Source: Tridacna crocea (taxonomy: Eukaryota > Mollusca > Bivalvia > Cardiida > Cardiidae). Taken from it: 64,000 bases of DNA. Below are positions 3,961-35,900 of the stretch, piece by piece. The notes under the pieces are model-generated. The model was not told the DNA's origin, made no database searches, and saw only the letters and a list, made by a program, of their open reading frames with translations. A program made the position numbers and the translations under genes. How positions within the stretch are numbered: position 1 is the first letter of the stretch; the number at the start of each line of letters is the position of its first letter. The DNA is taken from assembly GCA_943736015.1 (NCBI GenBank), contig OX031065.1, forward strand, positions 37,400,427 through 37,464,426. The letters are read 5' to 3'.

Positions 3961-4389
3961 AGGATTCTAAATACCTACCCGAAATGGACACCGTATGCTT
4001 CCAGTGTCTTTAAATAGCGAGGATCAAACACAGAATACCGAATTAAGTATCTCAAGCTTTAACCAATACCCCCGTGGGGCCCTTTTAACTGTTAAAGCTT
4101 GAATTCTTGTAACTTTAAAATACTTTGTTCATTTGTAAACTGGAGACTGTAACGTTGATTAATCCGTAGGTTCATAGGGACTTGGTGCAACTTCTAACAG
4201 TAACTGAATAATAGTCGTCACTTTATCTGTGAAAATAAAGTAATTGGAATGCAGAGACGAGCCATGATAATTGATAATTGTTGATACAAGGCGAGCATGT
4301 AAATAATAAGTTATATGGTCATAATTATTCTACAACAAAAAGTCATCACTGTCTTATGTCAAAGATACTTTAAAGAAGGCTTTAAACTA

Positions 4390-5226: not shown

Positions 5227-5507
5227 AAATGTTATTCTGTTGCAGTATGGGTTTGTGAGTATCTACGAAAAGTATTTTGCAGGAGATTGCCAGTACATTT
5301 CAAACGATGTCCTTTTTAAATTTTAATGTAATTTTTGTCAATCATTTATTTCGTGGTCTGCAAAGTTTTTCAATACGAACAAATCTATTATTTCGTCTAG
5401 GAAAGTATTTATCCGAGTCTATGTAAGCTTTGTTGGGCCTGAGGCCTCTTGACATATGCTTCCCATGTCTGTCGGACCTTCATTTGATTGGTCTGTACCA
5501 CTAAGTC

Positions 5508-5737
5508 TTAACCCATTACCACACAATCCCTGCTTTTGACGCCCCTGAGAAAGAAGCCCTTAGAAAACATTGTGTGAAAATGAGAAAATGCTGGTAACCA
5601 GCATTTTCTCCTTTTCCCACAATGTTTTCTACCCTTCACAAAACAAATTTCAAATCTTCAGTCACTTTTATGTTGTCGTCTGCAAATGCTTTCGATTTGG
5701 ACAAGCCTAAAAATATTGTCGTTTGGTAATGAGTTAA
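5508..5737 (+). mobile_element. MITE-1, core A, 50 bp from exon 12 donor
   Basis: TTAACCCATTACCACACAAT start and GGTAATGAGTTAA end, complete palindrome. Confidence 0.9.
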
Positions 5738-5786
5738 TAGCCCTACACATTTTTTTTGAAAATAAAGAGAAAAATCCAAAGCTTAC

Positions 5787-5955
5787 CAAAGCACCCCCTG
5801 TCCAGCTTGAAGACAGCAAAGGGGAAATAAAACAGGAGCCCACCAAGGATAAACATACCAGCGTACAACAACTCGACTTGTGGATTATCGATAATCGGTC
5901 CAATCACCAGATAGACTGCGCACAGCACGAAAATGATCGGGATCAGAATAAATAC
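5787..5955 (-). CDS. SLC7A9-like exon 12 (TM11-TM12), last exon found
   Basis: Encodes [40 protein letters not shown] and [16 protein letters not shown]. It ends in phase 1 at a GTAAGC donor, so at least one more exon (C-terminal tail of some 20 to 40 residues) must follow to the left; I did not find it in 1-5786. MITE-1 copies sit 12 bp upstream of its acceptor and 50 bp past its donor. Confidence 0.92.
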
Positions 5956-8900: not shown

Positions 8901-11900
8901 TCAAGGACGAAGCAGAAACTTCCTGGTCATTAACCATTTCCCAAACAAGCCCTGGTTTTTACGTGTCTGTAGTAAAAGTCTTTTGAAAACACTGTGGGAA
9001 AAGGAGAAATTGCTCGTAACGAGCAATTTCTCCTTTTCCCACATCATTTTCTTCCCATTTTGAGGATTTTCTGCCATTTCTCAAAATCTAAAATTGTCGT
9101 CTGCAAACTCTTTCGGTTTGGAAAGGTCCAAAATTTGTCGTTTGGGAAAGGGTTAATTTATAGAATACATGTCCAAATGGTCTGAAAAATGCCACCATTT
9201 TACCACTGCTCTGCCAACACAGCTCCTCTTTGTAAATAACAGTAAACAAAACCCTTACTAGCTTTAGATCTGGTTCCTGTCTATGGTCACAGACACAAAG
9301 GAATGCCCGAATGGTACACACCTTCTCGACAGATCATCGAGCTAACACTAGAAACTTATTTTTGACATCATGTTGCATCATCTTTTGTAATAAGCAGTGT
9401 AGCAGAAGTCCGTGGTATAAAGTTTTCAAATGAGACTACTTTTTATTATAGTGTCAAGATAACCATCAGGTCAGACGAGACAGTCTGTGCTATAGTCAAT
9501 TAGAAAATTCGAATTGTATGAGTACTCTCTACTTTAAAAAAAATAAAAAACAGTTTGTGATCGCGATTCCGGATGGTATATTCTGTACAGTTGGTTGTCA
9601 TTGACAGGATCCTTAGTGTAAGCGGCAAAAGAAAGCTTTACCTGCCAGACGAAAAGCAAAACCCGTTTGCGGCCCCAAATGTTGAAAACAAAACAGCAAT
9701 CGGCATGATGATATATGCTTTCTCTCCTAGAACACTCTTTCCCCAGTCCTGACAAAAGAAAATTATTTGTCGAACTTATATTTTGTACGCATTATAATGA
9801 TCTAAATAAAACATATGCATGGAAAAAATCATGTATGAGTAAGTGATATTTTTTTTATGATCATAAACAAAAAATATGATGCAATGCAATCAAGTATAAA
9901 TCAGTCGACACAAAAATGAATGAATCGACCAGTCCACAATTTGACAGATAATCTCCAATAAAATAGCCAAAATGAAGCACAGATCTTTTGCACAAGAAGC
10001 AGTCTATGCAATAAGGCAGCCACACAACATACAGCCATTAAACATTGAAGTGGCACACACCACTGGTAGTAGACATGTTAATATGCTTATATGTGATTTT
10101 TTGAAACTTAAATGGCAAGTAAAGTTATCGACCTGCTGTGACTAAAAGAGGTATTAACCCTTAGGGTGCTTACCCTGACTCGATGACCTTTTGCGGACAG
10201 TTTAGACTCAGATCAGACTACATAGAAAGTGCATGTTTGAACTTGAATCTACACTGCCAGAAAAGAAGATATTTTTCTCAAAAATGTAAGTTTGAAGAAG
10301 CATTATTCGGGTGTTACTACCGGCTTGAACGTTTCATTAATTAACTCATTACCAAACGACAATATTTCAGGCTTGTCCAAATGAAAAGCATTTGCAGACG
10401 ACAAAAAAAAGTGACTGAAAATTTAAAATTTGTTCAGTGAATGGTAGAAAACAATGTGGGAAAAGGAGAAAATGCTGGTCACCAGCATTTTCTCCTTTTC
10501 CCACAATGTTTTCTAAAAGTTTCTTTCTGAGGGTCGTCAAAAGTAGGTATTGTGTGGTAATAGGTTAAAGAGGACAAGGTCTAACTCTTTCATCGCCAAA
10601 GATAATTGAGCGGTGCTCCGGCAAAAGGGGGCTGACTGCATCACTGTGATTCATGACATCAAAGAAGCCATCACATGTTATGAATCCTTAACAGCCACTT
10701 CTTTTGATAGCTGATATAATCATGGGGTAGACTGCTCCTGGTACATACAAATAATTGACCAATAGCTAAAAGTTTCGGCCCAGGTCAGCCTGCGCGGACT
10801 GCGCAGGCTGACCTGAGTCGATGCTTTTTCGCAGATGCATTAAGCCCCCTTTTCAAAGGAAATGATTCAATATTATAACTTCTTCCAACGGATAAATATA
10901 AAGTCCACTGAAACAACAGCTGAAGTCCTAAGGGCTTGAAAAGCAGACAATGTAGATCCAAGATCAGACTTTAAAGTCTGTGCAGTCTAATCTTGATCTG
11001 TGCCTTCTGCAAAAGCTCTCCATGTTAACCTTTGGCGCTGAAAGGTTTAAAGGTACGTAATTCACTCACAACAGCCACTGCATCAGACTCTAATACACCG
11101 TTCAACGACAGCACCGTTATGTAGGAGATATTCGTCAGTATGTACACAATCGTTACCAGAACAACACCGATGACATTAGCTCGGGGCAAATCTCTGTCAA
11201 AGATCATATCAAAGAAAATCACAGTCCTGGGCCCGTATTGACCAACCATTCTTGAGAATATTCTTAGTGTTATTCTCCAAGGTTTTCTATATTTGTAAGT
11301 AACACAACTTCTGATTGGCTAAACAGAATGGTTTAGCCAATCAGAAGTTGTGTTTCGTACAAATTTACAAAATCGATTGACAGTTTTGGATTTACTTTTC
11401 ATTTCAGCATGATTTTTTTTGTTGGTGGTAAATTTTCTCGCGTTTCCAATAAGTTGTGTAGTATTAGGAGATTGAATTCTGTCAACATTTTCAGACTAAA
11501 TTTTGTAGAATTCGTATCAGTTAAAAATAATAATGCAAAAAATCTCTTACTGTAAAATTACATTTTTTTTAAATTGTTAAGTGCACAATACCAAAAACTT
11601 TATTGACTTCAAAACATATTTGCCCTTTGCCATACATATAAAATCCATTTATTGTCTTTATTCAAGTAACCAATGTAGGATCAGGTTGATAGCTCGATAT
11701 AGTATAAGAACTGACGCTGCAGTACTTACTACGTATAACCACGTCATTTCCTAGAATTGCTTCGAGTGAATTCTGAAGAGGGCTATTTAGATTTTAAAAA
11801 AACTTCGGCAAACTTCAACAATTCCATCACTAAATTAAGTTGGTCGCTAGCTGACAAACAATTAGTAAAGAAGAAAGCCAAAAGTTATTACACCAGGCGA

Positions 11901-14900
11901 TTGCAAAACTGCATAGAATTACGACGGACAGAGAATGTAATTTAGGACTTAATTGACTCCTATCAATCGAGGATACCACATGATGCTTGTCACGTGATCG
12001 TGTTCGACCCTCGCCTAACATTCATTTAGCTGGCAAGAAAATGGTGCTGAGATACACTTCACATGTCTGCTGTCGCAACAATCTGTCACAAAAACCCAAC
12101 AGTTATTTACTCGAGGATGGCGAAATTTTATATTGAGACTGCAGTGGAATGATTTTAAAGGCAGAAGAAATGTAAATCTGGGCCGGTATTTACCAACCAT
12201 TCTTGAGAATATTCTTAGTCTCATTCACCAAGGTTTTCTAAATTTGTAAGTAACACAACCTCTGATTGGCTAAACCGAAAGGTTTAGCCAATCAGATGTT
12301 GTGTTACTTACAAATGTAGAAAATTCTGGAGAACAAGACAAAGAACCTTCTCAAGAATGGTTGGTGAATACAGGCCCTGGTCTATATTCAAACCAGTACG
12401 ATGTTATCATATCTGATCTATAAATGTTGGCGTGTTGATATCAGAAAGACCACCCATTTATTCTAAACGTTTCAAATTGCACGTTTTTACTGAAACTAAC
12501 CACACAGTTTCTTTTTGCTTTCAGGGAATATAAACATTCGGTTGGCATTTACCAGTATCTTGTATGAAATTTTGATTTATGGAAAAATTAATAAAGCCCA
12601 CAAAACCACTTGAAATTAACCCATTACCACACAATCCCTACTTTTGACGCCCCTGAGAAAGAAGCCGTTAGAAAACATTGTGGGAAAAGGAGAAAATGCT
12701 GGTAACCAGCATTTTCTCCTTTTCCCACAATGTTTTCTAACCTTCACAAAACAAATTTCAAATTTTCAGACACTTTTATTTTGCCGTCTGCAAATGCTTT
12801 TGATTTGGACAAGCCTAAAATACTGTCGTTTGGTAATGAGTTAAATGGAAATGTCTAGCATATACTTAAGTTTGCAATTTATAAGATGTAGGGTTTTTTT
12901 TTTAGATGGAATTCTATGCGTATGGGATATTCAGTAAGTGCCTACCTGTAAGGGTGTTCCAGCTCTTCTGTTAAATAGTTCAAAGTATTCCTGTCAAAAT
13001 CATGAAACGGTTAGTTAAAGGTACAGAGTAAAATATGACGGGGAAAGAAATACAAACAAGAGAGCTCTGGGTCTATATTCACCAATCATTCTAACGTATA
13101 TAACTAGTCTTATTCTCCAAGATGTTCAAAGTTTGAAAGTAACACAACTTGTGATTGGCTAAACCATTTGGTTTAGCCAATCAGAAGTTGTGTTACTTTC
13201 AAAAACAGAAAATTTTACAGAATGAGACAAAGAAAAGTTTAAGAATGGTTGGTGAATACGGACCCAGGATGAGGTAAAGGAATTTTTTTTTTATATAAAA
13301 GAAAATGAATATTCATGTATGTTGGTAGTAGTATATAAGTACTTTCATTGGTGATGGATGCATTTTGCGATCTGTCATTTTTGCCAAAATTCATTAACAG
13401 CCTGTCTGTATCAGCCTTTTGTTCCGAAATACAGATGGATAAACGCGTAAATGATGGATTTGTTAGCAGGGACGATAACAAAGAATTAATTTTTATCCAT
13501 ATGAAAATACTTTCGAAAAAAAAAAAACAGTTTTAATTAACATGTTGGACCGCTGTTTTCATTGCTTGGATGGTGTTCATTCAAACATTTAAGTATTCTT
13601 TGACTAACTTTTAACAAGACAACGACCTCGAGGAAGAAAGCTTTTGAAAACAAAAATAAGCGAAAATGCTTTTAGCAAGCATTTGTGTCCCTTTTCCACA
13701 ATGTTTTTATCCTTTCTATACCAAATCTAATCACTTGAGCCACGTTTGCAGATGTTAACTCTGGACAAAACTTTTATATCTAGTTAACACTGGCCTGTTT
13801 ACACTGTTATTATGTATTTTATTTAATCACTGGAATAACATCTTCGCAAGCCAAGGCTGACGATTCACTACGCTACTCTACCCTTGGCGGATCGAGCTTG
13901 ATTTTTACATTCACCCGATACGCTTTTTCATTGGATGCAGCCAGCTCTAGCTGCAACGAATGAAATCGCTCGTAGCATTTCATTTTTGATAAAAATAGAA
14001 TAAGGTCGCTACCTTTCGAAGAGAAGGTAAACACGGAAACCCACGTGGATGTCTGCTTATCGCTTCATGTGTATTCGTAAGCGGTTTGTAAAACGATATT
14101 TCATTTGCTTCTAGAAATATGATGTAAAGGGGGTTAATAACCAACATCCAATAGAGGGCGCATCGCAGAAATCTCGAAATCGGGCTCAATCAGCCAAGGT
14201 AAGATCCACGTAGTGATCGTAAACTCGGCTCGCGAAGATGTTGGAATAACAGGGCTGACAATGAGTCATCTATTAGACATGTTTGTAAAACTAGAGATTT
14301 AGTCTCTGTCATCAGCTTTTTTTTCCCCTCCACTATTCTTAACCCTTTACTCCATAGATACTCATTTCTACGCATTGCTTGTAGGAGTCTTTCGAAAACA
14401 TTGTGAAAAAAGGTGAAATTGCTCGTGACGAGCAATTTCACCTTTTGTCACAATGCTTTCTATACTATGAAAAGGTGTCATATGCACATATATAAGAAAC
14501 AGTTTCATATTTGCTGTTATTTAGGGTCAATATTAAAGATACCATAGAAATGCCTCATGGGGTAAAGGGTTAATAGGAATCTTATTCCTATTCACAAAAA
14601 TTGTCCGAATTCCAGTGTCCGGTTGGCTAGATTAAGAAAATAACCCGAAACGTGGATGAAAACGGGCATTTCGTGACTTTCTTATGTTTGCATGGGTTTC
14701 ACCAACAGTCGCTCGAGGATTTGGAGCCCTTCTGGTAAAAAAACATGTTTATAATTTTGAGATCGTTGAATCATTTCCTGGGTTTGTCGAAAACCCCTCC
14801 TAGGGCTGATCAAAGTCATTTCTAAATCATTCACCTCTCCCTCATCGCAGAATACTGTTCTATATAATAGCAATATAAGTCCGTATTAAACCGTCTTCGC

Positions 14901-17900
14901 AAGCCAAGGGAGACGATCCACTACGCTACTCTACCCTTGGCGGATCGAACTTGATTTCGACATTCCCCCCGATACGCATTTTCATTGGTTGCAGCTAGCT
15001 CTAACTGCACCGTATCAAATCGGTCGTTGCATTTCATCTTTGATAAAAATAGAACAAGGCCTCAACCTTTCTGATAAAAATAGAAGGTAAACATGTGAAG
15101 TGTGCAGGATCTGTAATGATTTATTACCGAAAAAGACGTAGACGAACGATATTTACAAAAAGTTTCAGTGTGACCAATAAATTATCAGAGGTTTTAGGCT
15201 ATATCCCAGCACCTGATCAGGGAATGTCGAAGTACGTATGTGGTTGTTGCTTCATGTTGAATTATTGTATTCGTAAGCGGTTTGTAAAACGATACTTCAT
15301 TGGCTATAAGAAATATGATGTAAAGGGGGATAATAACCACCGTCCAATAGGGGGCGTATCGCGGGAATATCGAAATAGGGCTCGATCCGCCAAGGTAAGA
15401 TCCACATAATGATCGTAACCTTGGCTCGCGAAGATGGTATTAATCCAACACTCTGATATTTTGTTATATTCATTAGTCCAAAAATATCCAGAATCTAACA
15501 TTCAAAAACTAGCTATCTGATTCGCCGAGGAGATAAATCATCTTGGCCAATCAGTGACTTGTGTTATTTTTCTTTAATCTAAAATTAGACTCGAACCAAA
15601 AAATGCGTTGCGAATACTGCCGAGAAATATAAGTCGGACAAAAATGCAGCATTGGTGTAAAACTTTATAGATCTACCACAAAATTCCGACTTTTAACGAC
15701 CCCTGAGAAAACACTGTGGAAAAAGAAGAAAATGCTGGTAACCAGCATTTTCTTCTTTTCCCACAATGTTTTCCAATGTTTCCCAGCCAAATCTCATAAT
15801 ATTCAGTGACATTTAAATTGTCGTCTGCCAATGCTTTCAATTTGAAACAGTCTGAAACGTTATCGTGTTTTAACCCATTACCACACGATCCTTTCTTTTG
15901 ACGACCCTGAGAAAGAAGCCTTTAGAAGACATTGTGAGAAAAGGAGAAAATGCTGGTTACCAGCATTTCCTCTTTTTCCCGCAATGTTTTCGACCCTTCA
16001 CAAAGAAAATTTCAAATTTTCAGTCTCTTTAATTTTGTCGTCTGCAAATGCTTTCGATTTGGACAAGTCAAAAAAATTGTCGTTTGGTAATGAGTTAAAG
16101 AGTAAGAACGGTGTTGAGCACTGAACAAAAAAAAAAAAACCCTTACCAGCCATCATACGCCCACATGGCGTCATAAAACGACAGGGCGATGTCAGATGGG
16201 TTGCTCAGGGTACCATGAAAACCTTCTTGCATCCCACTCAGATGACCTACAAAACATTGGTCAATGTGTAATGGAGGAATCTTTTCGGGGGGATCCTTGA
16301 ATGGTTTGCCTGAATTCTGTTCCCCGACCTAAACAGTCAAACAATATTGCAATTTCATATTTTTTTTTTTCGGGGGAGGGGGGGGGGGGCAGGGGCGGAG
16401 ACGGGAATATTTCTCCTCATCGGACAGTGTATATCCAAGATTACACTGCATTTTTTGTGCAGTCTGATCTTGGATATAAACTGTCAGAAAAGAGACCTTG
16501 AGTCGCGCTTTGTTGGCTACGGGTTAACCCATTACCAAACGACAATATTTTAGACTGGTCCAAATTGAAAGCATTTGCAGACGACAAAATAAAAGTGAGT
16601 GAAAATTTGAAATTTGTTTTGTGAAGGGTAGAAAACATTGTGGGAAAAGGAGAAAATGCTGATTACCGGCATTTTCTCCTTTTCCCACAATGTTTTCTCA
16701 AGGCTTCTTTCTCAGGGGTGTCAAAAGTAGGGATTGTGTGGTAATGGGTTAAATTGCTAAATGTGTATATGTAACTTTCCCAATAATACTAGATCTATTT
16801 TTATGCCTACTTATATATTCAGTATAAAGGTCAGGATAAGGTTAAATTGCTTACCGTGTATATGTAACTTTCCCAATGATAGTTGGAGTTCTATTTTTAT
16901 GCCTACTTATATATTCAGAATAAAGGCCAGGATCAGGTTAACCCATTACCAAACGACAATATTTTAGACTGGTCCAAATTGAAAGCATTTGCAGACGACA
17001 AAATAAAAGTGAGTGAAAATTTGAAATTTGTTTTGTGAAGGGTAGAAAACATTGTGGGAAAAGGAGAAAATGCTGGTTACCGGCATTTTCTCCTTTTCCC
17101 ACAATGTTTTCTAAAGGCTTCTTTCTCAGGGGTGTCAAAAGTAGGGATTGTGTGGTAATGGGTTAAATTGCTAAATGTGTATATGTAACTTTCCCAATAA
17201 TACTAGGAGATCTATTTTTAGGCCTACTTATATATTCAGTATAAAGGTCAGGATAAGGTTAAATTGCTTACCGTGTGTATCTAACTTTCCCAATGATAGT
17301 TGGAGTTCTATTTTTATGCCTACTTACATATTCAGAATAAAGGCCAGGATCAGGTTAAATGAAGTAGACAATACGGTAGGTTAGAATTTACAGATTAGGA
17401 CAACCATATGACCAATACAATGAGAACAATAGGAAGTTAGTACTTTGACAAGGAATCTTGCTTTCCACCCAAATGGATTAAAAATCAGAATTAGCACATA
17501 ACTGAAACTCTTTACAAAAAAAAAAAATTGAAATGATTCGTGGATGACACAAAGAGACATGGCTTATGTGATGGGATGAATTTTTAAAGGGGTTGAAAAC
17601 ACGAAGGGAATAGGAGAAACTGCTTGTTGGCCAGAATTTTCTCTTTTTCTAACAATGCTTTCACATGCTTTCTCTCTCTGAGAGTTGTGTAAAGAGTTGT
17701 TTGGAAAAAATGCTCATTTTGCTATATGAACCCACCAACGAATCAACTAGGTGATTATTATCACTGAATTTGACCACTTATAAAATAGATCTAAAACTTA
17801 AGCAAAAAGTAATTATCGAGCAGGCTATCGACCCAAGGAGACCAAGATATGCAGATGAAATATGCAGACCTCGCTTGATCTGTAGTCCCCCTACGGATAT

Positions 17901-20900
17901 AACAGTTTGTGAGGTGCAGGGTCATTGCGTTCGACCAGTGGCGTTTAAGGGTTTATTTTCTTTGCAAAACTATACGAAAATGCGCCATCCGCTTCCGACT
18001 GAATACATCACTGTGATTTTACCTTATAAAAGACTTTTGAATACCTCCAAGTAAAAAGTTCAATAGGCGCGTTAAATGCTCATTCAACTAACTTGTTCTT
18101 GATTCGATCAATGAAAACTTTATCCTACAACGACAACTTTCGTTGTACTTTGCCACATAGGCTAACCATCCATCTTTTCATTGTAATATTGAGATGTAGT
18201 CAAAGTGAAAGTTTTTATTTCAAAGAAGTTTGAAATAAAATCATGTTAGATGATAACAAAAATATATCATCTAACCCACGAAATTTATTACCTTGACAAA
18301 CAAAATATCTAATTTTATTATCAATATAAATGTAAAGTCAAGTTATCATATGCTAGAGACTTTGGGACTATCTGTATCTTTGATGTGCGTATACGCCAGT
18401 CTGTCAAAGCTGTAAGTTGGTCTCACGAAACCTTCCAAAATGTATGCAGCTTCCACAGTGTCATTATCAACTCCATTAATTATTATAGAGATATCTGATA
18501 AAAAGAATCTTACATTCCTGGGCTTTTACATAGATCTTTTAACAGATTGGTTAAAGAAAACGTCATAAGCTCGCAAAGGCTTACTTATAACATCTTCCTA
18601 GATTCGTTCAATAAAATAATATTTCCAAAACAAACCGTTAAACCAAATCTTTGTGGTCGTTTCTACTGGCGGTCGAGGAACAAACAAAAAGAAGACTGTT
18701 CGGTACAAATTTCACGTAATGGGAATCGGAAGCAAAATTGCTAATGCAAGCTGAACAATGATAGTTATTGTTCCCACTTGATAATTCACAATTGTTATTG
18801 ATACCAGTATTGTATAGCAGAAATAACCATCTTCAATAATCATTGACACGTTTATATATATTTATTCATTTATCTATTTATTTATTTATTTATTTATTCA
18901 TCTTTGGTCGTTATTTCCATTTTTACTGGAGACTTAAGCGTATAAAGTACAATGCAAAGCAACATCTGCACAAAATACCATAACGATAGTGGGTAAAAAA
19001 TGCATGAAAATCTGTTTGTCTGTCAATTTATTTTCACTCTATTTTACTAAATGTGATATAGCTACTACTTGTGTATCTAATTCATATGAAAGCTCATCTT
19101 AGCGCCTTATATAGTTACTGCATTATCATACCACATGTATATTTAAAAAGATTTACGATACAACCTTACGGCAAGAGAGAAAAAAAATAAAAATTTGAAA
19201 TTACCAATACATATGCTGCAAGTATAGAGATACTCGAGGATTTGTCCTGGTTTAAGGTAAGACCTGTGTAATGCACTTCCGGTGAAAATTCTAATTGGTT
19301 GATAAATAAGGATAAAGAAGGATTTATGCAGAAATATAATTTTTGCACATTTATAATGGATCAGAAATTCCGTTTATGTCTATCCTGAAATTATCTTTTG
19401 ATACTTTTGTTAGTTTTCTGAAAAGGGAGGTAATTATTATCGCTTTTTGAATTGAGAACATAGTGGTTTTAGATTTATGAATGATAATTCAAAGGAGGAA
19501 AAAATGGAAAAAATGAATTGGTGAAAGTAGTTCAATAATACTCATTTTTAAGTATAGCTGATTTTGCAGGATGATATTTTAGTGGAAATAGCTGTTTTCC
19601 ATTACACAGGTCTTACCTTAAAACCGGAAACGGCAAAAGTGATTTCTTCTCAGGCTGCCAAAAAATAGAAAGCATTTCTATCCATCGGAAGCTGTGCAAC
19701 CTGGCAGCTCCCAGGGGAAACGTTCGGTGTGAAGATATAATAATGATAATAGTTTAAAATTGAATTTTTTGATTAACTAAATTAACCCATTACCACACAA
19801 TCCCTACTTTTGACGCCCCTGAGAAAAAAGCCTTTAGAAAACATTGTGGGAAAAGGAGAAAATGCTGGTTACCAGCATTTTCTCCTTTTCCCACAATGTT
19901 TTCTACCCTTTACAAAACAAATTTCAAATTTTCAGTCACTTTTATTTTGTCGTCTGCAAATGCTCTCAATTTGGACCAGTCTAAAATATTGTCGTTTGGT
20001 AATAAGTTAAGATCAAACGGGTTCAAGACTGGCTGAAAATTAGCGTAGCTGTATCTTTAACTGAGTGATATACAATCGAAAATCTATGGTTGTAAAAAGT
20101 AAAGTTCACACGTCGATTAAACGTGCCAAATCTGCAGAGAGTGTTATCATCAGCAAGATTCCACTTATGTTTCTTTTATAAAGGCTTGTGGTGGTCGTCG
20201 TCTATAACAACTTTAAAAAATACCTTCGAAACAAGTCGTCGTTTAATCTATATTGTCCGTCGTTATTCCTATCAAGGAAATCAGTTTTTGAAAAAGCAAG
20301 GCTAAATGCCATTTTGTAGCATTGTTATAAGGTCTGATCTGCCAAGATCTAGAAAAGCAAAGGAAAGCATCTCCAAGGCTCGTTTCCTGTGTAAATATCC
20401 AGCCCAAAAGGTTAAAAGCAGTTTCTCTGTGACCAAGATTGGAACCTTTGAGAATGACATCAAGCAACTTATCAATGGCACGTTGTTTGTTGACTTGATC
20501 TCCTCTTTTCGAAGCCAAATCGTACTGTAAGAAATATAGATACACCTGTGAATCAACAGCTATCCAGTTAAACCAAAAGTCTGATCTTTGCTGCTGATCA
20601 CAGTGCGTGAAAACAGATCTGTACATTTCATACTGTAGAGCAGGATGCGCAAGGCTAGCCTGGAAAGGTAGAAACACCACACATCCCGTTGTAAATCTCT
20701 TTGCGAATGATATATAAGATATTTCTGCTGTGTTTGGCATTTGCTTTTGGTCATCCTTGTAAAACATAGTTGTTTCGTCACAACAGCCACACACAGATTC
20801 GGTATATGGTTTAATATGCGTCTCACATGCCTTTAGGATGGCTTCACATGAATCAATTTTACCAAAACGAAGATAGAAAGTTGCTGCTAACAGCCGAGGT

Positions 20901-23900
20901 AAAACAGAATCATACTCTAAACATTTAAGAATATGTCTTCTGAATACGCTTTTCGCTCTGTTACAACTGTTGGCAGAGCCGTCCAAAATGATGGCGGCGA
21001 CAGTCTGGGCTATCTGCAAGTGTAGATGGGGGATGAAGAGCTCTAGTGCCCGTTTTACATCTGTTTCTGTGTAAACAGTGACTGGTTTGGGATTCTCCAA
21101 TTTGTTTATCAACAACAATAGTCTGACCAAACACTCTTGAGAAGTTCCGGATGCGCATGTATCTTTGAGGTACCAATGTTTTATAGACGCGATATCTCTA
21201 ACTATGAACCAGTGTCGACAGAATGTCTGGAACACCATTGTTTCGTCTGTCATTTCAATAATGTCCAAAGGTGGCTCTTCATTCTGTAGCAGTAAACCGA
21301 CACTTCCGGATGTCAAATCAAATAGAAATTCTGGGCCCTTCATTATCATCTTTTCAATCAGCTCAACAACTTGCCTGCACGTCTGATCTGCCAAACCGTC
21401 CAACATATTTTTCTCTGGAAGAAAGTAATTCGGGCAGTATCCTTTCCTCAGCCAGTCTAAAAGGCGATTCAGACAATCAATGGTACAATGAATTAGATTT
21501 GCTGGTATCCAGATTGCATGGTTTGTGTTTTCCATCGTGTAGAATAGGCAGGTCTTACAATGGTATGACGAGATCGATTTTGTATTGGTCCCGATGGCTT
21601 TGTCTATTACAGGTTTAATAATGTCGTTCTTTATCGTCTTCAGAAGTATGTAACATTTATGCTGTGTCGGGTTAAGACTTAGCATAAGGTTTCTTTCTTG
21701 AAGTGAGAAAGAAATACTCCATTCTGTGTGTATGTGCTTACTGTCTGGGTGACCTTTACCAACAAAAAAACACCCTAAAGAGCTAAGCTTTTCTACCGTT
21801 TCTTTTGTAGGCCAGCTATATGGACGTTCCCTGTGACTCCATTCGTCAGCCAATTTTGGAATTACCTCACATCGCTGTGCAAAAACATAATCAATTGGAT
21901 CAGATATTCCAGGTGATGTGTCTGCTGGACCACTTCTTTCTTTAATAGTAGGCAGAATACCTACTGCAGAATAATGTCTCAGACATACGTTGCCATATTG
22001 GTCAGTTGTGAGATTCTGTCTGTGAATTTTAACATCTGCTAACTCATTTTGGATGTTTTGTGGTTCACCGTCGACCGCAAGCTGTAACTTTACATATCCT
22101 GGCTTGGTACTCTCATCAAGTACTATCAGAAGGCATAAGTTATGCAGTTTTGCATCATCTCTGTTCTCTACAACCTTGAAGTAATCATCACACATCAAGA
22201 AATCTCTGTCTGAGTCGAGGCCAGGTATCGTGGTACCCTCACTGTAACTACCAAAGATATACCACGACGATGGGCGTGAAAGTATTTGTGCCCGTGTAGT
22301 GTCTGCTATTTCCCGAATTTTAGCATATTTCCAACATTGTGCTCTCACTTCTTCGGAAGCTCCAAGAGACTCTAGGATTTGAGAAAGACGGACAGACAGT
22401 CCTTGCATGTTCTCATTCATAGTTCTATTGAAGTGTCATATGGCTGAAAAAATATATATAATAAAGATTATAATTATATTGAATTTCTGTATCAACTGAC
22501 AAATTATTAAATGAAATATGATAAAAAGGAATTTTTGGTGGTTTTCCTGGTACATTAATTATTACTCCAAATTGTCATTAGCGGCCATAAAAACAAAACA
22601 GGTGTTACAATGCATTCAAATCTAAATCATACAATTTAAAAAGATGTAAAATAATATGCAGACGACAATCTGTTATTGTGGGGTCGGTCAAAGCACCAGT
22701 TGATGGCACGAAAATGAATATTAAAATCTGGCAAAAAGTACACAAAAGATAGAGGAACCTAACAGGTTTTACTCTAACTTTGACTCGGGTAAAATATTTT
22801 TGTCATCGGTCAATATTCTACATGGGAAAGGACATTTAACCTCCAGATCCAACCGTTTAAAACGTTGGCTTTTATGGATCCATAGTTATGCGATAACTTG
22901 CTTGATATTATTATCTGCATCATTTAACCTGATCCAGGTCAAAATCATTTACATTATTAGTTGTACGGTCAGGTGGCAGGGGACTTGGAAACTTGTTCAC
23001 AGCTGTGGTTAATCATGTCGCCCCGAGCCGAAGGCTATGAACTATGTCCAGAGCATAGTTCATATCAGAGCTCCAGATAAGAGGGAGTGATGGTACTCTA
23101 AATCCACTATTTCGTTTCCAAACCCTATGTTGTGGGTACACATTAGAATCGTCTCGATGAGACGATTCTAATGAGTACTCATAACATAGGGTTTAGTGTA
23201 GAATAATCAATATTTTCGATTTTGAAATCGAAATCATTCCCTCAATCTGGAGCTTTGTCATATGCTTTTGTATCATATCTTTTGACACACGTTCGTCTTA
23301 GGTGAGCATAGCAGTAGTTTGTTATGTAATATTAGGGGGTGTTTTTGACAAAATTTCAGTCATTTTGCTGCTATTATTTTTTCGGCATTACTTGGATCTG
23401 GGAAATGTAGGCCTACTTGTACCATATTTCTTCTCTTTCGATCTGTCCCGGCTGAGATCGAATACAGGACAGCAGGATCATAGATCCGACATGTTAATCA
23501 CTAACCGCCCCCTAAACCCGAAAAAAGGCAAAATCATTGTAAAAAATAAAAGATTGACCTTAGTTTCGAATTGGCATAGCACATCATGATCATTCTATGT
23601 ATTTTTCGATATTATTTAAGGAATAAAGAGAATTTTATATTTTTCATGGAGGTATGAAAAAAAAAAAAACCTAATCACACTGCATCTTCATTCTTTATAA
23701 TTTAATATTACAGAGACATCTTCCCCCCCCCCCCCCATTCATTTTCTTTAGTTTTGAATCTAATGTTTGAGTTTTTAAGTTCCTTCCACTCATATATGGC
23801 GCAAGAATATAACAAGGAAGCAATTTTCAGATCCCAAATACTGAAAATTAACCAACAGAATGAAAGTAAAGGAACAAAGCAGTGTGTAGGACCCGCAAAA

Positions 23901-26900
23901 GTAACCTTCAGCAAAAGTAGTTCCGGCACATGGTGATTTTTTTTTATGGAGCTATGAAAAGAAAATTCAGCCAATCAGAGTTTATCAATGTTCATGAAAA
24001 CATCTGATATTAAACTATTTGTACATTTATCAAAGTGTAAGCATGCAGTTTGAATGACAAAGTCCTAGCGAGTACGGACTTTAACATAATAAGGCCTGCA
24101 ACACGCGAAAAGGGGCATTCGTACATTTGCCGTCCGCACAGGTTAGTCCAAAAACGACACTTTCCGTTTTATATAATTTTCTATTTGCGCAAGTCTAATG
24201 AAAAAAAGAACCTATGTAGTCGTAAAGTGCCGTCTCGGATCAACCGGCGCCGACAACACGATACTTTACGCAAATGTCCGAATGCCCCATTTTCGCGTAT
24301 TGCGAGCCATATCGATTTACCTGAAAGGCACAGATCACAACTTGTATAACAGCAAAATATTGTTTAAACCCGATTGATATGCACACAATATACACCTGGA
24401 TACATGTTGCTGTATTGATTTAATGTGCACAATAACGATTGCTTATACTGATTTTGTGCTTGAATGTTTAAAGAATTCAGATTTTAGGAAGCTCTGTGAA
24501 AAAGAAACTTGATGCATCTGCATTAACCCATTACCAAACGACAAAAATTTACGTCTGTCCAAATCGAAAGCATTTGCAGACGACATGATAAAAGTGACTG
24601 AAAATTTGAAATTTGTTTTGTCAAGGGTAGAAAACATTGTGGAAAAAAGGAGAAAATCGTAAATACAAGTAATAATGTTTGGTAAAGGCCTAAAACATAT
24701 TCATAATGCATTATTCAAAATAGGTTGCCTCCTGAATATGCATCGATTTGTCTTAACCCTTTCCCAAACAAGCCCTGGATTTTACGTGTCTGCAGTACTA
24801 GTCTTTTGAAAACACTGTGGGAAAAGGAGAAATTGCTCGTAACGAGCAATTTCTCCTTTTCCCACAGTGTTTTCTACCCTTTAGTAGAACTTTCTACCAT
24901 TTTCATCAAATTCAAAATTGTTGTCTGCAAACCCTTTCAGTTTGAAAGAGTTTAAAATTTGTCGTTTGGGAAATGGATAATGAAAAAGGTATTTCGTGAG
25001 GCAGAATGGTCCTTTGACATGTATCCAGGCCAGTCTGCACAGATTGCGTTGTCCGACATTGGCCAATACTTTTTTGCAATATTCTAAGATCATGGCGGAT
25101 ATATTTATACTGTTATTAGACTTTTTTTTTTTTATTTTGCACCTATTCAAGTTGACAGAATTTCAGCACACAATGAAAAGTGGATTCAGTAATTATAGCA
25201 TTAATGCATTCCTACAGCTTCCATGTAAAAAAAAAAACTCAGCAGTTTGCTTACATATATATACTAGGACGAAAAAGAAACGCAGGGTACCACGAGATAT
25301 TGAACAAGCTTTAACGCATTACCACACAATCCCTACTTTTGACGACCCAGAGAAAGTAGGCTTTGGAAAACAGTGTGGGAAAAGGAGAAAATGCTGGTTA
25401 CCAGCATTTTCTCCTTTTCGCACAATGTTTTCTACCCTTCACAAAACAAGCTTCCAATTTATGGTCACTTTTATTTCGTCGTCTGCAAATGCTTTTGATT
25501 TGGACAAACCTAAAATGTTCTCGTTTGGTAAGAGTTGAGTCTCCGTGTGCAGTCAGTCACTCCTTTTTTCACTGAGGAGTGGGTACTGTCAATAAGAAGC
25601 CATTTTCTCATTTCCTTCTGGCCACATTGACATGGAATTTCGTCAAAATATTCAAAACTGACCAGTGGTAAACATAAAATCATAATTTAGAATTCTCAAT
25701 CAAGTTATACTCCTCTAAACTACACTGAAAGGTTACCCTGCGTTTCTTTTTCGTTCTAGTATATACAGCAGTCTCTGTTCACTTCTACAATACAGAGAAC
25801 AAATACTTATGGGTATATATATATTTTTTGTCCTCCAGATGTGGTGCAAATATATTTTTAAGAAATCAGGTTACTTCTGGGGTTATATATTAACAAAAAT
25901 ATAGGTATTTACATGAAAATAAACGTAAATCTACCGGTTAAGGTATCTTTACTTTCGTTATTAAATGTGTTTTTGTGAAGAGACTCATGCCAAATTTGAA
26001 AGAAAACCTACTGTATGCCTACAACTTTACATGCAAACAAATATACAAGTTGTAACAACAGAAACTCTATGTATACCCCTGTTAAAAGCCTTTGATTATT
26101 CAAGAGCACATAAATAACACATACCAAAACTGATCGCAGAATTTCTCCCAGTGTCCTAACCATGGCATTTCGTCACTCTGTAGGCCAAATCACGCGTTAT
26201 GAGCGTTGATTGTACAACGGGAAACTTCACGGAATTTGTTTATCGTAGAGCCAAAAATAGAATATTGGAACTATAATATTCTCACGCGTCATATGGGTAT
26301 CATATTACGATCTCTTTTCTTTCATAAAATATTGATTGTGGGTATTTTAAGTATTGTTCAATAGTCTAGACATTTAAATATGCACACTAATTTAAAGTAT
26401 ATCTATACTTATTTATAACTGAACAATTCTGACAATTGTCGAAAACATTTTCGACTCTTATATTTAAGATTTGCCTGGAAAATCAATAATTAATTCAAGC
26501 TTTTACTTTGACATTTGAGAAAGTAAAAATAGGTAAGCAGAGTTTTCTTCAATTCCATCACGTTGTCTAATTCTTCCATTGACTAACAGTAACGTGTCGC
26601 TTGTAAATATACTTTCCATATCAGTGACTCCAAAATTTTGTCGTCTGCTACAGCGTTAACTCATTACCAAACGACAAAATTTTAGGTTTGTCCAAATCGA
26701 TAGCACTTGCAGATGACAGAATAAAAGTGAACAAATTGATAGCATTTGCAGATGACAGAATAAAAGTGACTGAAAATTTGAAATTTGTTTTGTGAAGGGT
26801 AGAAAACATTGTGGGAAAAGGAGAAAATGCTGGTTACCGGCATTTTCTCCTTTTCCCACTATGTTTTCAAAAGGCTTCTTTCTCAGTCTTCAAAAGTAGG

Positions 26901-29900
26901 GATTGTGTGGTAAAGCAATAATATAATTTACTTCACTAATTTGCTGCTTGAAAAAATTGAACATTTGCCACACAATCTGAGCTTAGATGACCTTGACTTA
27001 AAAAGCTTTTGAAAACACTGTGGGAAAATGAGAGAATGCTGGTAACCAGAATGTGTTTTACTTTCTAGATCAAAATTTAATATCAAAATTCGAGAAATAT
27101 TAGTTTGTAGTCTGGAGGTACTTTCAGTTTCGATTAGACATGCTTTATCATGTTGTAAAGATTTAGACGAAAAATCAGTACATTAGTAAGTACATTAACT
27201 GATATAAATTTAATCCTTTACCTAACAATCCCTGGTTTTCACGACTCTGGGAAGGATGGGTTTTGAAAATATTTTTGAAAAAGGAGAAAATGCTGGGATG
27301 GTTTTTGAAAATACTGTGGAAAAAAAAGGGAGAACATGCTGGTAGCCAACATTTTCTCCTTTTCCTACAATGTTTTTGTCCTATCAAAGACAGAAACCGT
27401 CATTTGGGTTGTATTTAAATCGTAAACTTCAAATGCTTTCAGTTTGGTTTGGTCCAAAATTTCGTTGTGTGGTAAAGAGTTAGTGCAAATACAATTGATA
27501 TAACCTCTCCGAGCAGGACGAAATGGCCGACGCGACTAGCTTACTGGTCGTGTTTATATCTATAGACAAATTTATAATTTTGAAAACATTTATTTTGTAG
27601 TCTACAGATACTTTCAAAGTTGACGAAACTTAAGTTGATAAAAGGTTTGGTAAAGATTCGTGCAAGACATTTGACATACCCTGTCCAAGCCGAACAAATC
27701 CTCCAACTATGATTATAGCCACGGCGACCAGTTTACTGGCCGTAAAGAACACCTGGACATTTGAGGCCCACTTTGTGTCGTAACAGTTGATCATACAGAG
27801 TGCGACTGAAAAAAAAAAGACTGAAAGATTAGTACAAGATATTTAGTATTGGCTCTCCGAGGCGAACAATTCCTCTAACTGTAATAATGTCCACAGCGAC
27901 CAATTTACTGATCGTGAAGAATACTTGATCATTGGAGGCCAAGTTTGTGTCCTCATAGAGGACCATACAGAGTACGACTGAAATAATGTCAAAAAGTTTC
28001 GTAGAATACATTTGATATACCCTGTCTTAGACCTACGAGTCCTCCGGCTATGAGGGCGCACAGATCATTTTAAATTTGGATGCCCACCTTGTGCCGTAAC
28101 AGTTTATAATACAATGTGCAAGTAAAATAAACGAAAGTCCTAAAACCCCGGCCGAGCCCTGGTAACTCAGTCGCTAGCATAGAGATATTGAGAACAACGC
28201 TTCAAAACATCATATTCACTGTCTGGTAAAAAAGAAACTGAAGTTGTGACACGTCCAAAGGGTCAGTAACTCTGTACTTACTTATTACTACTACAGCCGT
28301 TATCTTTTCCGGTGGCTGAGGACTTCCACAGTACTCGAAGAATGTACCGAAATAGGACGCAAACACCATACAGATGACAGCTACAGCTGATGGCTGAAAT
28401 AGTACACACAATTTTGACAATAATTTTATAATTAAGTGTCTTACGCTGGTATTTTGTGACGCCTGACTTCGTTAGCTTGATATCTTTAAACGGTACAATG
28501 ATGTCCATCACCTTGCGTTTAATGTCATTAATTGCGAGATGCGTAGTATCCGTCATTATGTGGATAATGTCCATCATAATGTTTGCAGTGTCAGCCATAT
28601 GTTACGTGTTTTGTTTCATTATGGACCAGGCATCTATAACTGTTTGCGTGGTGTTCGTTGTTATTTGCGTGGTATCAGTAATTGTGTACGTGACACCTAG
28701 CATTACAATTGTCGTTCCGTCCGTAAATGATTGCGTGCTGTCGGTCATTATGTGCATAGTGTTCCTCATTATCAGTGTGGTATTAAGTAGTGGGTGCGTA
28801 GAGTTCGTCATTATTATGTGTGTGGTATTCGGAATTATTTACGCGGTCTTTGTTATTGCATGAATAGTGTCCATTTTAACCCTTTCCCAAACAATACCTG
28901 GTTTTCACGACCCTGAAAAAGAAACCTTTTGAAAGCATGGTGGGAAAAGGAGGAAATGCTGGTAACCAGCATTTTCTCTTTTTCCCACATTGTTTACTAC
29001 CCTATCAAAGAAAAATAATATCATATGAGCCACATTGAAACCATCATCTGCAATTGCTTTCAATTCAGACAGGTGTAATATTTTGTCGTGCAGTAAAGGG
29101 TTAAGGCGAAGCCTATGCGTGTTTTATTAATGTCTGTCATTAAGTGCATCGTGACGTCTTCTTAGCTGAATAAATTTCACACTTTATACGCAAAAGTACT
29201 GGCCACATTGAGATTCAGAGCATGACTTCTTTGGCAGCAAAAACAGAAGATACATATTTTTTTCCTTTAACCCTTTCCCAAACAATCCCTGGTTTTTTTC
29301 ACGGCCCTGATTTAGAAGCCTTTTAAAAACATTATGGGAAAAGGAGAAAATGCTGGTAACTAGCATTTTCTCCCTTTCCCACAATGTTTTCTATCCTTCA
29401 CAAAACAAATTTCAAATTTTCAGTCACTTTTAATTTGTTGTCTGCAAATGCTTTCAATTTGGACAGGTCTAAAATATTGTCATGTGGTAACGAGTTAAGA
29501 GATGTCTACCAGTAGATAAAATATCCCGCAATAATGATTCGGAGTCAAAAGGAAGATTTGTTTGTCGACTGGTAAAGAATGAAAATAGATATCGACAGGT
29601 GGGACACCATTTTAGTGTGTACAGCTATCTCACCTACCTGAATGACGAGGGTTCGAGTCCAAGCGTACAAAAACGCCAACATCGGAATATAAGCTTCGTA
29701 AATATAAACATACTCGGCGCCAGACTTAGGTATTAGTGTTCCTAGTTCTGCATACGACAGTGCACCTGAAAACAAGGAGATACGGTTTGAGCGCTGTATT
29801 TTTACAACATAGCCTATACCTCACTTTGTTATTCTTCGAGAACCATCAAGTACAAAATATACCTTGCGCGTGTAACAGTGTAACAGACCTTATTGAGATT

Positions 29901-32900
29901 TCTTTGCTATAAATAAAGAATTTTTTGGTGAAACGGGGTATTTTTGTCAGTCAAAATAATGTGATGGTCGTAGTTCATTCGGTGATTCCTATCTATATTT
30001 ATGCGATCAAACATGACATCATTATACTTATTTATATACGACACCACATAATTGACATGTGCTATAGATCGTGTGACATTCCCAGACGTTATTGTGACAT
30101 TATAGTTTGAAGTCTATAATACTCTAGGAGGCTGTAGATAATGTCTGCAACGCGCAAAAAGGGCCATTCGGGCATTTGTGTAAAAATTCGTCAAAATTGG
30201 ATGGGTAGTGTCAGAGAAGATGTTTGAAATATAAGTTTACGCACGCACAGACAGACGCACGACAGACACCGGGCCATGACATAAGCCCGCTAGCCTTTAA
30301 CCAGTAGAGCTAAAAACCTCTGGATAACTTAAGATTAACAAATACATGTATATATATATATATACACACACACACAAAGGAGCTGTATTGTCAATGCAGC
30401 AAACAAAGAAGCTGATGATTGATCATACGTCACAATTACGCTCAATGAACTGTGCATTTGTTAATCAACCGAGTATCGAACTCACAATCACCAAGTCATG
30501 AGTCCGACACGCTCACCACTTGGCCACCCAGGCGGGCCATAGGGCCTTGAGATACCAAATTTGGCATGTATCTTTATCAAGTGGGCGTGTACCAAGGATA
30601 TCTAACTTATAGCCATGAGGTCAAATTTGGCCCGGGGGTCACAAATTTTATAAGGGCTTATATTGGGAAAACCTCTACTTGTACATAACCCCAAGGCCTA
30701 GGACTACCAAATTTTGCATGTAGCGTAATCTAGTGGGCCTCTACCAGGAGGGCCCAAATAATAGCCTTAGGGTTAAGTTTGTCCCCACACCACTAGGGTT
30801 CACAAGTTTTACCTTGGCTTTTGTGGTGAAAACTTTTTAAATGATCTTTTTACGAACCAAAATAAGGCCTAGGGCTACCAAATTTAGCTCTGTTTCATGG
30901 GTCTCATTTTTTACATGGCATTTATTTTAGGAAACTTTGAAAATCATCTTGTATATAACCACACATCCTGTATTATTTGGTATGGGGGTTTATCTTATAG
31001 ACCTCCACCAGGATTCAAGTAATTATAGCTTTGTGGCCAAAAGTGCCTTTGCCCAGGGGTCAAAGGGTTAAAACCTTCTCATAGAACTTTATAGAAAAAA
31101 ATGTATGTCTTCAAGTTTAAAACCAATAGGCCAGAGTTGTAATGTTTGGCTTGTACTGTTTTCACTTATTAACTAATGGAGCGATACATGGCCATCATGG
31201 CCCTCTTGTTTGAAGTTAGATCCCCTATTGCATCAGTGAACTAGAGTAACAGATGGATGAAAAAATAGGGCCCTTTTTTGACCTGGGCCATTGCCAATTG
31301 TATGTCTTCAAGTTTGAAACTTTTTGGCCGGATTTGTAATTTTTGGCTTGTAGTGTCTTCACTTATTAGCCAGTGGAGCGATACAGGACCATTATGGACC
31401 TCTTGTTTCAAGTCATATCCCCTATTGCATCAGTGAAATAGAGTAAAAAGAGTAGGAGAGTAAGAATAACAAAGGAAATAACGCAGCTTCAGTAATGAAA
31501 ATATCCGAATCTCAGTGTTGGCATACTTATGGTTAAAGCAATCTCCGAGCAGAGTTGTCGTTCGTTATCTCACATACATCTCTGCGATGGGCTAAATGAC
31601 AAGAATCTTGTCAAATCGAGGAAAAGATGTTTTGTTACTATTTAACTGTTTCATGTGTAAAATTATAAGGTAGACAAAGGAAATATGATTCTGGATACAT
31701 TATAGGTGCGTTCAAACAGATGAATTTACCTGTATAAAATGGAACTATTTTATTCGAGCTTCTTCACTTATCAGAATCTTACACCAATTTTAACAAAAAA
31801 TGGCTGCGCCCATGGATGATGACAACTGATTTGATCTAAGTGGTGGATCTAAGTTTGCAAGATTAAAAATCAATTTATCGTCCTTTAAAGACATTTAGGC
31901 TTTTCAGAAAATCTCTCTTTTGTGCATTTCCTATCACTTAGTCTGATTGGTCCCATGCTGTTTGAACAGCACACGAAACAATCGATATTGGTCTTTCTTT
32001 CATCGGCTTTTGTGTCGCCATTTTGAGTTATGGTCGTGTGACAAAAATATGACGTAATGACGGACTACCTTCTGAGCCCACTACAGAGGTGAATGCGAAT
32101 GATCCGGAGTGCAAGAGAGTGATGGTTACAGTTGTGAATATATGCATATAATGAAATAACGAAATCAAAGGTTTATAGTGTGCAACAATAAATTATACTG
32201 TTGCACTCATAAATGGATCATTTTTGAGGTACTAAATGCTAGAACTCAATAACTTTTCTTAATTTTTGTCCCGTATGTCTGTCCTAATAGCTCTAGTCAA
32301 AATTGTGAATAAATTTAGCCAGAAATATAAACACATTCAACGTGCAGACTGAAAATTCAGAGATTGGTTTCAATTAATTCTGCTAGGAACATTTATTAGA
32401 TTGTTTTACGGTATGTGAAATTAGTCAGACTTGATTTAATACATGTATAAGTCTTACATAAATGTGGATTTGTATGAGCACCTTAAATTAAAAAGATTTG
32501 TAAAAAAGATTGCATTGTTTCATTGTTTGCTTCATTTTTGTGAACATAGGAAAAGTTTAATTTACGTAATGGGCAAATTTTGGGTAGGCGCGTTTATTAG
32601 CATATAAAAAAAATCTGCACCACTTTCAGATCTGGCATCCATGCTTAAAGTGACTCTAATAGGCTATCCTAACTCACTATACCATTTGAATTTTTCTACC
32701 AGATGGATTGAAAAAAATAGGGCCCTTTTTTGATCTGGGCCTTAGCCTATATATTCGACGGTCTAATGTTGGGACACTTAACCCATTACCACACAATCCC
32801 TGCTTTTGACGACCCTGAGAAAGAAGCCGTTGGAAAACATTGTGGGAAAAGGAGAAAATGGCTGGTAACCAGCATTTTCTCCTTTTCCCACAATGTTTTC

Positions 32901-35900
32901 TGTCCTTCACAAAACAAATTTCAAATTTTCAGTCACTATTATTCTGTTGTCTGCAAATACTTCCAATTTGGGCAAGCCTAAAATATTGTCGTTTGGTAAT
33001 GAGTTAAAACAAAATCTGAGTTTTACCAAACCTGACTATGAGGGTTTGTTTTAATCCTTAAGCTGCGAAGCGCCACTTACTGCCCTTTTGCCGACATCAT
33101 AGATCAAGATCAGACTGCACAGAACGTGCAGCCTGATCCTGAATCTTCACTGTCCATTAAAGAAACATTTTTCTCTCACATAAAAAAGTTTAAAATGACA
33201 TTATTTGACTTTTCACTGTCGGTTTGAAAGTTTTATTTAACTTTTGTTTTACCAGGATAAGGATTAACCCGTTACCACACAATCCTTACTTTTGACACGC
33301 CTGAGAAATAAGCCTTTAGAAAACATTGTGGGAAAAGGAGAAAATGCTGGTAACCAGCATTTTCTCCTTTTCCCACAATGTTTTCTACCCTTCACAAGTC
33401 AAATTTCAAATTTTCAGTCACCTTTATTTTGTCGTCTGCAAATGCTTCCAATTTGGACCAGTCTAAAATATTGTCGTTTGGTAATGGGTTAAAACGTTGG
33501 TAGCAAAGAAGAAAATGAACGGCATGTAGCGTTCTTCCCACACTGTTTTCTTTCCTTTCAAAGCCAAAACCTATTATTTAAGCAAAAATGCTCTACAACC
33601 TCCTTAGACCCAGACAAGCTTATGAACTTGTTGTTTAGTAAAGAACACAACTTGTGAGAAGATTAAGAAAAGTGTATGTGACCCGTCACCTAAAAAGGGA
33701 CAATCTGGGAATTAACCCTTTCTCAAACAAGCCCTGGTTTTTACGTATCTGAAGTACAAGTCTTTTGAAAACACTGTAACGAGCAATTTCTCCTTTTCCC
33801 ACAGTGTTTTCTACCCATTTGGAGAACTGTCTGTCATTTTTATCAAATTTGAAATTGTCGTCTGCAAACTCTTTGAGTTTGGAAGAGTCTAAAATTTGTC
33901 GTTTGGGAAAGGGTTAAAACAGATCAAAGATAGTGCAGGTCAGTTTAAACCATTACCACACAATCCCTACTTTTGACGACCCTGAGAAAGAAGCATTTAG
34001 AATACATTGTGGGAAAAGGAGAAAATGCTGGGAACCAGCATTTTCTCCTTTTCCCACAATGTTTTCTACACTTCCCAAAACAATTTTCGAATTTCCAGTC
34101 AGTTTTATTTTGTCGTCTGCAAATGCTTTCGATTTGGTCAAACCTAAAATATTGTCGTCTGGTAATGAGTAAAGTTGATAGGTCAAAATTGATTGTATAG
34201 TAAGGTAGAATGACCACTTTTCATGCAGAAAAAAATTCACCAACGCGAAAAGTGTCTACACTTTTCAGCCTGCGCAATCGGCGCAGTCTGACCAGGGTGG
34301 ACACTTTTCGCAGGTCCAAGAAGGTCCCTTTTTACCTGATTTTGATTTTGATATTGAAAATATTGATTATTCTCCACAAAACCCTATATTATGGGTACTC
34401 ATTAGATTGTAATGAGTACCCACAACATGGAGTTTAGTGGAGAAATAATGACAATATCACTCCCTCTTATCAGGAGCGCTGTGCAATACACCCCATTCTG
34501 CCAAAGTGCAGCTAAAATATTGAGTATATTACCAAATAAGGAAAGGAGTCCACTGGAGGCCCAAATAATCAGACTGAGGCCCACTGAGCCTGTTCCCTGA
34601 ATCACGCCCTTCGGTGAAATAAAGATGCCCGAACCTGAAAATTGAAAAAGAATGAACCCTCAGCATTTTACTAGATTACAAAAATTTAGACCCATCCAAA
34701 TTGAAAGCATTTGTAGACGATAATAAAAATGTTGCTGAAATGGTGGTTACCAGCATTTTCTCATTTTACTTCAATGCTTTTCGTCAGTCCACTTTTTCAG
34801 AGTAATTTAATCTATGGCAGAGGTTTAATTCTCATATTTATCGACAAACATTCGTATCCATCCAAATTGCAAATATTTAAAGACAATATATTATTATGTT
34901 GCTCAAATTATGGAATTAGTCAACAAAATGATTTAAAAAAAGATATTGGAAAAGGAGAAAATGCTGATCACCATTTTCCACAATGTTTTCACCAAGCTTC
35001 TTTCCTGTATCGATTCAACAAGGAATTGTTTGTAAAGCGCACGACAAATAATCTATAGGGAGTTTACAGCGGAAAATATTTGACAACATTGCGGAATAAA
35101 AAGAAACTGCTTGCAACAACTTACATCTATAACCAAACGACAATGTTTTAGGCTTGTCCAAATAGAAAGCATTCGCAGACGACAAAATAAAAGTGACTTG
35201 AAATTTGAAATTTGTTTTGTAAAGGGTAGAAAACAATGTGGGAAAAGGAGAAAATGCTGGTTACCAGCATTTTCCCCTTTTCCCACAATGTTTTCTAAAG
35301 GCTTCTTTTTCAGGGGCGTCAAAAGTAGGGATTGTGTGGTAATGGGTAAAATCTATCATACAGACTCATTTGCATTCATTTATCTTGTGAAGATCTACGC
35401 TTTCAATTAAGAGGACAAGCCTAAAAGTTTTCGTTTGAGAAATCCATCAAATAATTCCATGGTCTAGAACGACCCTAGGAAGAGGGCTTTAACTCTTTAG
35501 CCGCTAAGCGTGACTCACTGACCTTTTGCGGACAGTGTAGATCAAGATCAGACTGCACAGAATGTGCAGTCTGATCTTGAATCTATAGTGCCCGATAAAG
35601 AGATATTATTTAACTCATTACCAAACGACAATATTTCAGGCTTGTCCAAATCGAAAGCATTCGCAGATGACAAAATAAAAGTGAATAAAAATTCGAAATT
35701 TGTTTTGTGAAGGATAGAAAACATTGTGGGAAAAGGAGAAAATGCTGGTTACCCAGCATTTTCTCCTTTTCCCACAATGTTTTCTAAAGGCTTCTTTCTC
35801 AGGGTCGTCAAAAGTAGGGACTGAGTGGTAAAATGGGTTAAGAAAAAAACTTAACTTCGTAATAGCAACATTTGGGTTTTTACTATCGAATGGAAAATTT

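Follow-up and report, generated by a model that had tools for sequence, protein, structure and literature searches.

About 10% of animal genes are reported to hold tandemly duplicated exons (PMC9013439; PMC5589949 citing Letunic et al. 2002), and exon remnants of the kind described here are therefore to be expected. Earlier searches for mutually exclusive exons picked up pseudo-exons among duplicated exons as false positives (Pillmann et al. 2011, PMC3228551). Steric exclusion is described for 57 clusters (9%) in which donor and branch point lie less than 50 base pairs (bp) apart (PMC5740500), and exons 4a and 4b of OGDH are an example (PMC7969005); the published limit for this distance is roughly 50 nucleotides (nt) (PMC5740500, PMC7969005). 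In the oyster alternative oxidase gene exon 10 is duplicated, and transcripts with one or both copies have been reported (PMC5589949). PMC2447309 and PMC2257972 offer no useful precedent, and PMC9741552 does not mention SLC7. Here we describe an array of duplicated exons in the bivalve Tridacna crocea, formed by exon 5 of an SLC7A9-like transporter gene in a window of 64,000 nt (assembly GCA_943736015.1, contig OX031065.1, positions 37,400,427 to 37,464,426 of the forward strand; coordinates below count from the first base of this window). Within the SLC7 family, alternative exons are known from SLC7A2 (CAT-2A/CAT-2B), where they concern another exon than exon 5 and both alternatives work. Literature searches, none of which named SLC7A9 or its exon 5, turned up no paper on an exon 5 array in this gene.

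The minus strand of the window carries an SLC7A9/b(0,+)AT-like amino-acid transporter gene that is otherwise intact, since its 13 coding exons have consistent phases and, when joined, give 486 codons without an internal stop. Exon 5 of this gene, which is 126 nt long, enters and leaves in phase 1 and encodes the region of transmembrane helix 5 (TM5), occurs in four copies. With the gene on the minus strand, transcription passes them in the order 5c-5b-5a-5d. The live copy is 5a (27680..27805, 126 nt, phase 1-1), which splices in frame into the 486-codon protein. Sequence comparison shows that 5b (27852..27977) keeps the length of 126 nt, an open frame and the acceptor and has its donor GT changed to CA, and that 5c (28021..28121) is reduced to 101 nt and out of frame through a 25-nt deletion, with its acceptor AG changed to AC and its donor GT kept. 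The fourth copy, 5d (about 27505..27551), is truncated at its 5' end; it retains the 3' portion of exon 5, which has an internal deletion, is followed by a GT donor with its first intron base at 27504, and was detected by blastn against the whole window (E 0.004). All four copies are on the minus strand. Their similarity is far above chance: for each of 5b, 5c and 5d, 0 of 2000 dinucleotide shuffles equalled the local alignment score with 5a. A preliminary description of this DNA had reported three homologous copies with spacers of 43 to 46 nt, one copy live and the others decaying, together with the splice state of each; all of this stands, with the addition of the overlooked 5d and of the donor that 5c has kept.

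We read the array as the product of an old local multiplication of exon 5, with 5a kept as the constitutive exon and the other copies decaying to pseudo-exons, and assign a probability of about 0.82 to this reading. In our best reading, such decay is an ordinary fate of duplicated exons, a known phenomenon, and not a working switch. Short tandem duplications, taking along little flanking sequence, would have multiplied exon 5 at its own site. Since spacers of less than 50 nt would make neighbouring copies hardly spliceable together, one copy (5a) would have been retained as constitutive and the rest would have been free to decay, 5c by loss of its acceptor and 25 nt, 5b by loss of its donor and gain of charges in the helix, and 5d by truncation.

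The spacer between 5b and 5a (27806..27851, minus strand) measures 46 nt and that between 5c and 5b (27978..28020, minus strand), as given by the copy coordinates, 43 nt. The period of 172 bp proposed earlier holds for 5b-5a but not for 5c-5b, where, owing to the 25-nt deletion in 5c, the two ends give different spacings, 169 between the donors and 144 between the acceptors. Divergence between the copies is considerable. Of the 126 exon bases, 30 differ between 5a and 5b, namely 29 inside the compared codons and the last exon base; the in-frame differences fall 8, 8 and 13 times on the first, second and third codon position and cause 14 amino-acid changes. 5a and 5c differ at 27 of 98 compared bases, in addition to the deletion. 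Where 5a and 5b differ in frame (29 bases), 5c carries the 5a base 17 times, the 5b base 3 times (always at a third position) and another base 4 times; the remaining 5 bases are deleted in 5c. Divergence of this size is unexpected for an artefact, and an assembly error or a very recent duplication in this individual, an origin that had been named beforehand as a possible refutation, is hardly credible.

The multiplication of exon 5 is confined to the SLC7A9-like gene among the loci examined. A search of the 1.05-gigabase genome with exon 5a found at least 20 places, namely 5a and 5b, 16 intron-bearing paralog exons and 2 in longer open frames. All 16 intron-bearing loci contain an exon 5 of 126 nt at the same place, bounded by AG and GT. 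No second exon 5 copy was found within 1.5 kilobases (kb) on either side of these 16 loci, and the other tblastn matches had E of at least 0.65. One of the paralog loci (L014) has a short motif of 8 residues in tandem, which is not exon 5. A cluster of SLC7-like paralog exons (L014-L017, L021 and L022) lies on the same contig at 33.85-34.17 megabases (Mb), 3.3 to 3.6 Mb away from the SLC7A9-like gene; within it, L015 and L016 have an identical exon 5 peptide and nearly the same flanks.

Splice sites were scored with a matrix made from 26 sites of each type (10 donors and 10 acceptors of the SLC7A9-like gene, and 16 of either type from the paralog exons 5). This matrix is coarse, as leave-one-out scores of the true sites ranged from -0.2 to 12.4 bits among the donors and from -1.6 to 18.0 bits among the acceptors. 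The boundaries are AG|..|GT in 5a, AG|..|CA in 5b and AC|..|GT in 5c. Donor and acceptor score 8.6 and 14.3 bits in 5a, -13.2 and 8.8 bits in 5b, and 5.5 (GTATAT) and 0.06 bits in 5c; the donor of 5d scores 4.5 bits and its acceptor part is missing. Both splice sites are thus present only in 5a among the four copies, so that no choice between full copies remains, and a live mutually exclusive cluster is ruled out by the absence of a second copy with both sites. 5b is open, but its own end is unfit for joining to exon 6, and a read-through from 5b to the 5a donor meets a stop at codon 208; 5b and 5c are probably not spliced. Two GT sites inside 5b score above 2 bits. The one at 27879 was rejected as a rescue of 5b, as it has 2.2 bits, would give an exon of 98 nt that is out of frame, and is weak beside the 5a donor (8.6 bits); the other (27908) is considered below. 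The 5b-5a spacer contains a branch-site-like motif, TACTAAT, with its A at -24 of the 5a acceptor. The same spacer holds a second AG acceptor at 27820, 15 nt upstream of the 5a acceptor, which scores 7.7 versus 14.3 bits and would add five codons in frame. No branch-site-like motif was found for 5b (scanned from -15 to -50) or 5c. This contrast says little on the use of the copies, because a motif is also missing from 5 of 12 acceptors scanned in the gene, a set that includes 5a.

The preliminary description saw in this arrangement the layout of mutually exclusive exons. As far as geometry goes this is correct, because the spacers are below the limit of about 50 nt; however, the same layout results whenever an exon is duplicated in tandem together with short flanks, and a complete second copy is absent. 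The array could be the remains of a collapsed mutually exclusive cluster, in which two or three copies were once selected as TM5 alternatives and all but 5a were later lost; the phase 1-1 exon, the equal length of 5a and 5b and the spacers of 43 and 46 nt would fit this. We consider this unlikely, and the absence of a second copy within 1.5 kb at all 16 paralog loci examined speaks against it. Past selection on 5b was addressed with a codon branch model of the ratio of nonsynonymous to synonymous substitution rates (dN/dS) on 5a, 5b, 5c and the 16 paralogs. The model covers 41 codons and has little power; topology and relative paralog branch lengths were fixed from FastTree, and 5c was held at 1. 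With 5c included, dN/dS on the 5b branch was 0.82, which does not differ from 1 (p=0.75) and for which the family background of 0.21 is rejected (p=0.016). Moreover, 5b has an aspartate and an arginine in the 13-residue TM5 core, where neither 5a nor any of the 16 paralogs has a charge, and it replaces an asparagine that is conserved in 16 of 16 paralogs. Conserved positions, defined as those where the 5a residue occurs in at least 12 of the 16 paralogs, were not significantly avoided by the changes in 5b (3 of 11 conserved versus 11 of 30 other positions changed, Fisher p=0.72). The earlier suggestion that 5b had been a selected alternative exon therefore finds no firm support, with a branch dN/dS not different from 1 and charges in a membrane helix, and nothing speaks for the further suggestion that 5b was caught before regaining a donor.

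Several observations nevertheless weigh against the preferred reading, and two of them, the pairwise ratios and one simulation, would suit a collapsed cluster. Firstly, without 5c in the model dN/dS of 5b falls to 0.50, and then neither neutrality (p=0.20) nor the background (p=0.07) is rejected. Secondly, pairwise dN/dS between 5a and 5b is low with four methods, at 0.34 (NG86), 0.37 (LWL85), 0.43 (YN00) and 0.45 (maximum likelihood). Thirdly, 5b retains frame, length and acceptor and has no stop; this is a weak counterpoint, since 39-44% of neutral simulation runs were stop-free too. With every one of the 29 differences assigned to 5b, its 14 amino-acid changes are fewer than the neutral mean of 18.5 (P 0.02), and jointly with the stop-free frame P is 0.012; leaving out the 3 that 5c attributes to 5a, the simulation with the remaining 26 gives P 0.11. 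Lastly, the GT at 27908 within 5b scores 3.0 bits, which is weak beside the 5a donor but inside the leave-one-out range of the local donors; its use would leave an in-frame exon of 69 nt that lacks the second half of the segment, and half of 5b may be spliced in this way. Taken together, past constraint on 5b may have existed, and the codon comparisons show none. Old multiplication followed by decay, which appears to have been neutral, remains the reading that we prefer.

The intact acceptor of 5b leads to another possibility, that of a poison splice site. The 5b acceptor would sometimes be used, the exon would run on to the 5a donor, and the transcript would meet a stop and undergo nonsense-mediated decay, which would lower the level of the transporter. 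With 8.8 bits this acceptor is close to the leave-one-out mean of 9.3 for the 26 local acceptors, and joining it to the 5a donor indeed stops the frame early, at codon 208 of 487 (487 being the stop codon). Yet the 5a acceptor is stronger and has the branch-site-like motif at -24, which 5b lacks at -15 to -50 (as do the five other acceptors mentioned above), and we regard such regulation as very improbable. A different course of events would make the loss of the 5b donor driven: the donor would have competed with the 5a branch site within the 46 nt of the spacer and have been selected away, with GTATGT changing to CAATAC, and the flank would have become the 5a branch site, with CACGAAT changing to TACTAAT, after 5b had possibly served as an alternative TM5 exon. 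If true, the array would show how a gene resolves a conflict in a spacer that is too short, but we give this version a low chance.

A dispersed repeat on the minus strand borders the array on the side of 5d. Window comparison places its stretch at 27040..27482, of which the low end is set by the query and not by the repeat. The repeat has many copies in the window, most of which begin about 20-23 nt past the 5d donor in the alignment, and the same start recurs about 21 nt past the 5a donor, at about 27658 to 27559. That the repeat begins about 20 nt after the donors of both 5a and 5d suggests a joint duplication of exon end, flank and repeat start. Elsewhere, the intron that separates exons 3 and 4 has degenerate short-period repeats at 28498-28860, and a 39-bp unit occurs twice at 26693-26769 (94% matches).

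The coding part of the host gene extends over 4159..36701 on the minus strand. The exons next to the array are exon 4 (28282..28393, minus strand), whose donor is in phase 1, and exon 6 (16147..16246, minus strand), whose acceptor is in phase 1; a motif search found in addition a micro-exon of 45 nt, encoding 15 residues, at 12990-12946 on the same strand. The product of the other 12 exons, minus its first 11 residues, was compared with solved structures. The top three of 31 matches were chains of b(0,+)-type amino acid transporter 1 (E 9.2e-121, 1.1e-120 and 4.3e-117), the next match after the b(0,+) chains had E 1.2e-111, and chains of xCT, y+LAT and LAT ranked lower. By sequence the gene therefore classifies as an SLC7A9/b(0,+)AT-like light chain, with a similarity to b(0,+)AT exceeding that to other SLC7 members, where the label SLC7A9-like stands for the best structure match and not for a position in a tree. 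When the peptides of the 12 exons other than the micro-exon were compared with the window by tblastn, a strong second match was found for exon 5 only (E 3e-12), and the other additional matches had E of at least 0.025.

The array is a clear and easily read example of tandem exon duplication that has left no functional alternative; the live exon stands next to copies that have decayed to different degrees. It also calls for caution: where homologous exons are separated by short spacers, both splice sites of every copy need checking before the exons are described as mutually exclusive. Measured by the characters used for mutually exclusive exons in Pillmann et al. (PMC3228551), the copies are homologous, but compatible splice sites on each copy are lacking; length is 126 nt in 5a and 5b, 101 nt in 5c and truncated in 5d, and the stop-free frame is kept in 5b and not in 5c. 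With the steric-exclusion clusters, as described in PMC5740500 and PMC7969005, the array shares tandem homologous exons and a spacer in which donor and branch point would be too close, and unlike them it has no second copy bearing both splice sites. The oyster alternative oxidase exon 10 (PMC5589949) is likewise a mollusc tandem exon duplication with one copy diverging faster; there transcripts contain one or both copies, as reported, whereas 5b, 5c and 5d are broken. A lost splice site or frame beside an intact homologous exon, which defines a pseudo-exon, is found in all three of these copies, through the donor in 5b, the acceptor and frame in 5c and the truncation in 5d. The array is thus the same in kind as the pseudo-exons of Pillmann et al. 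(PMC3228551), with three decayed copies flanking a live exon.
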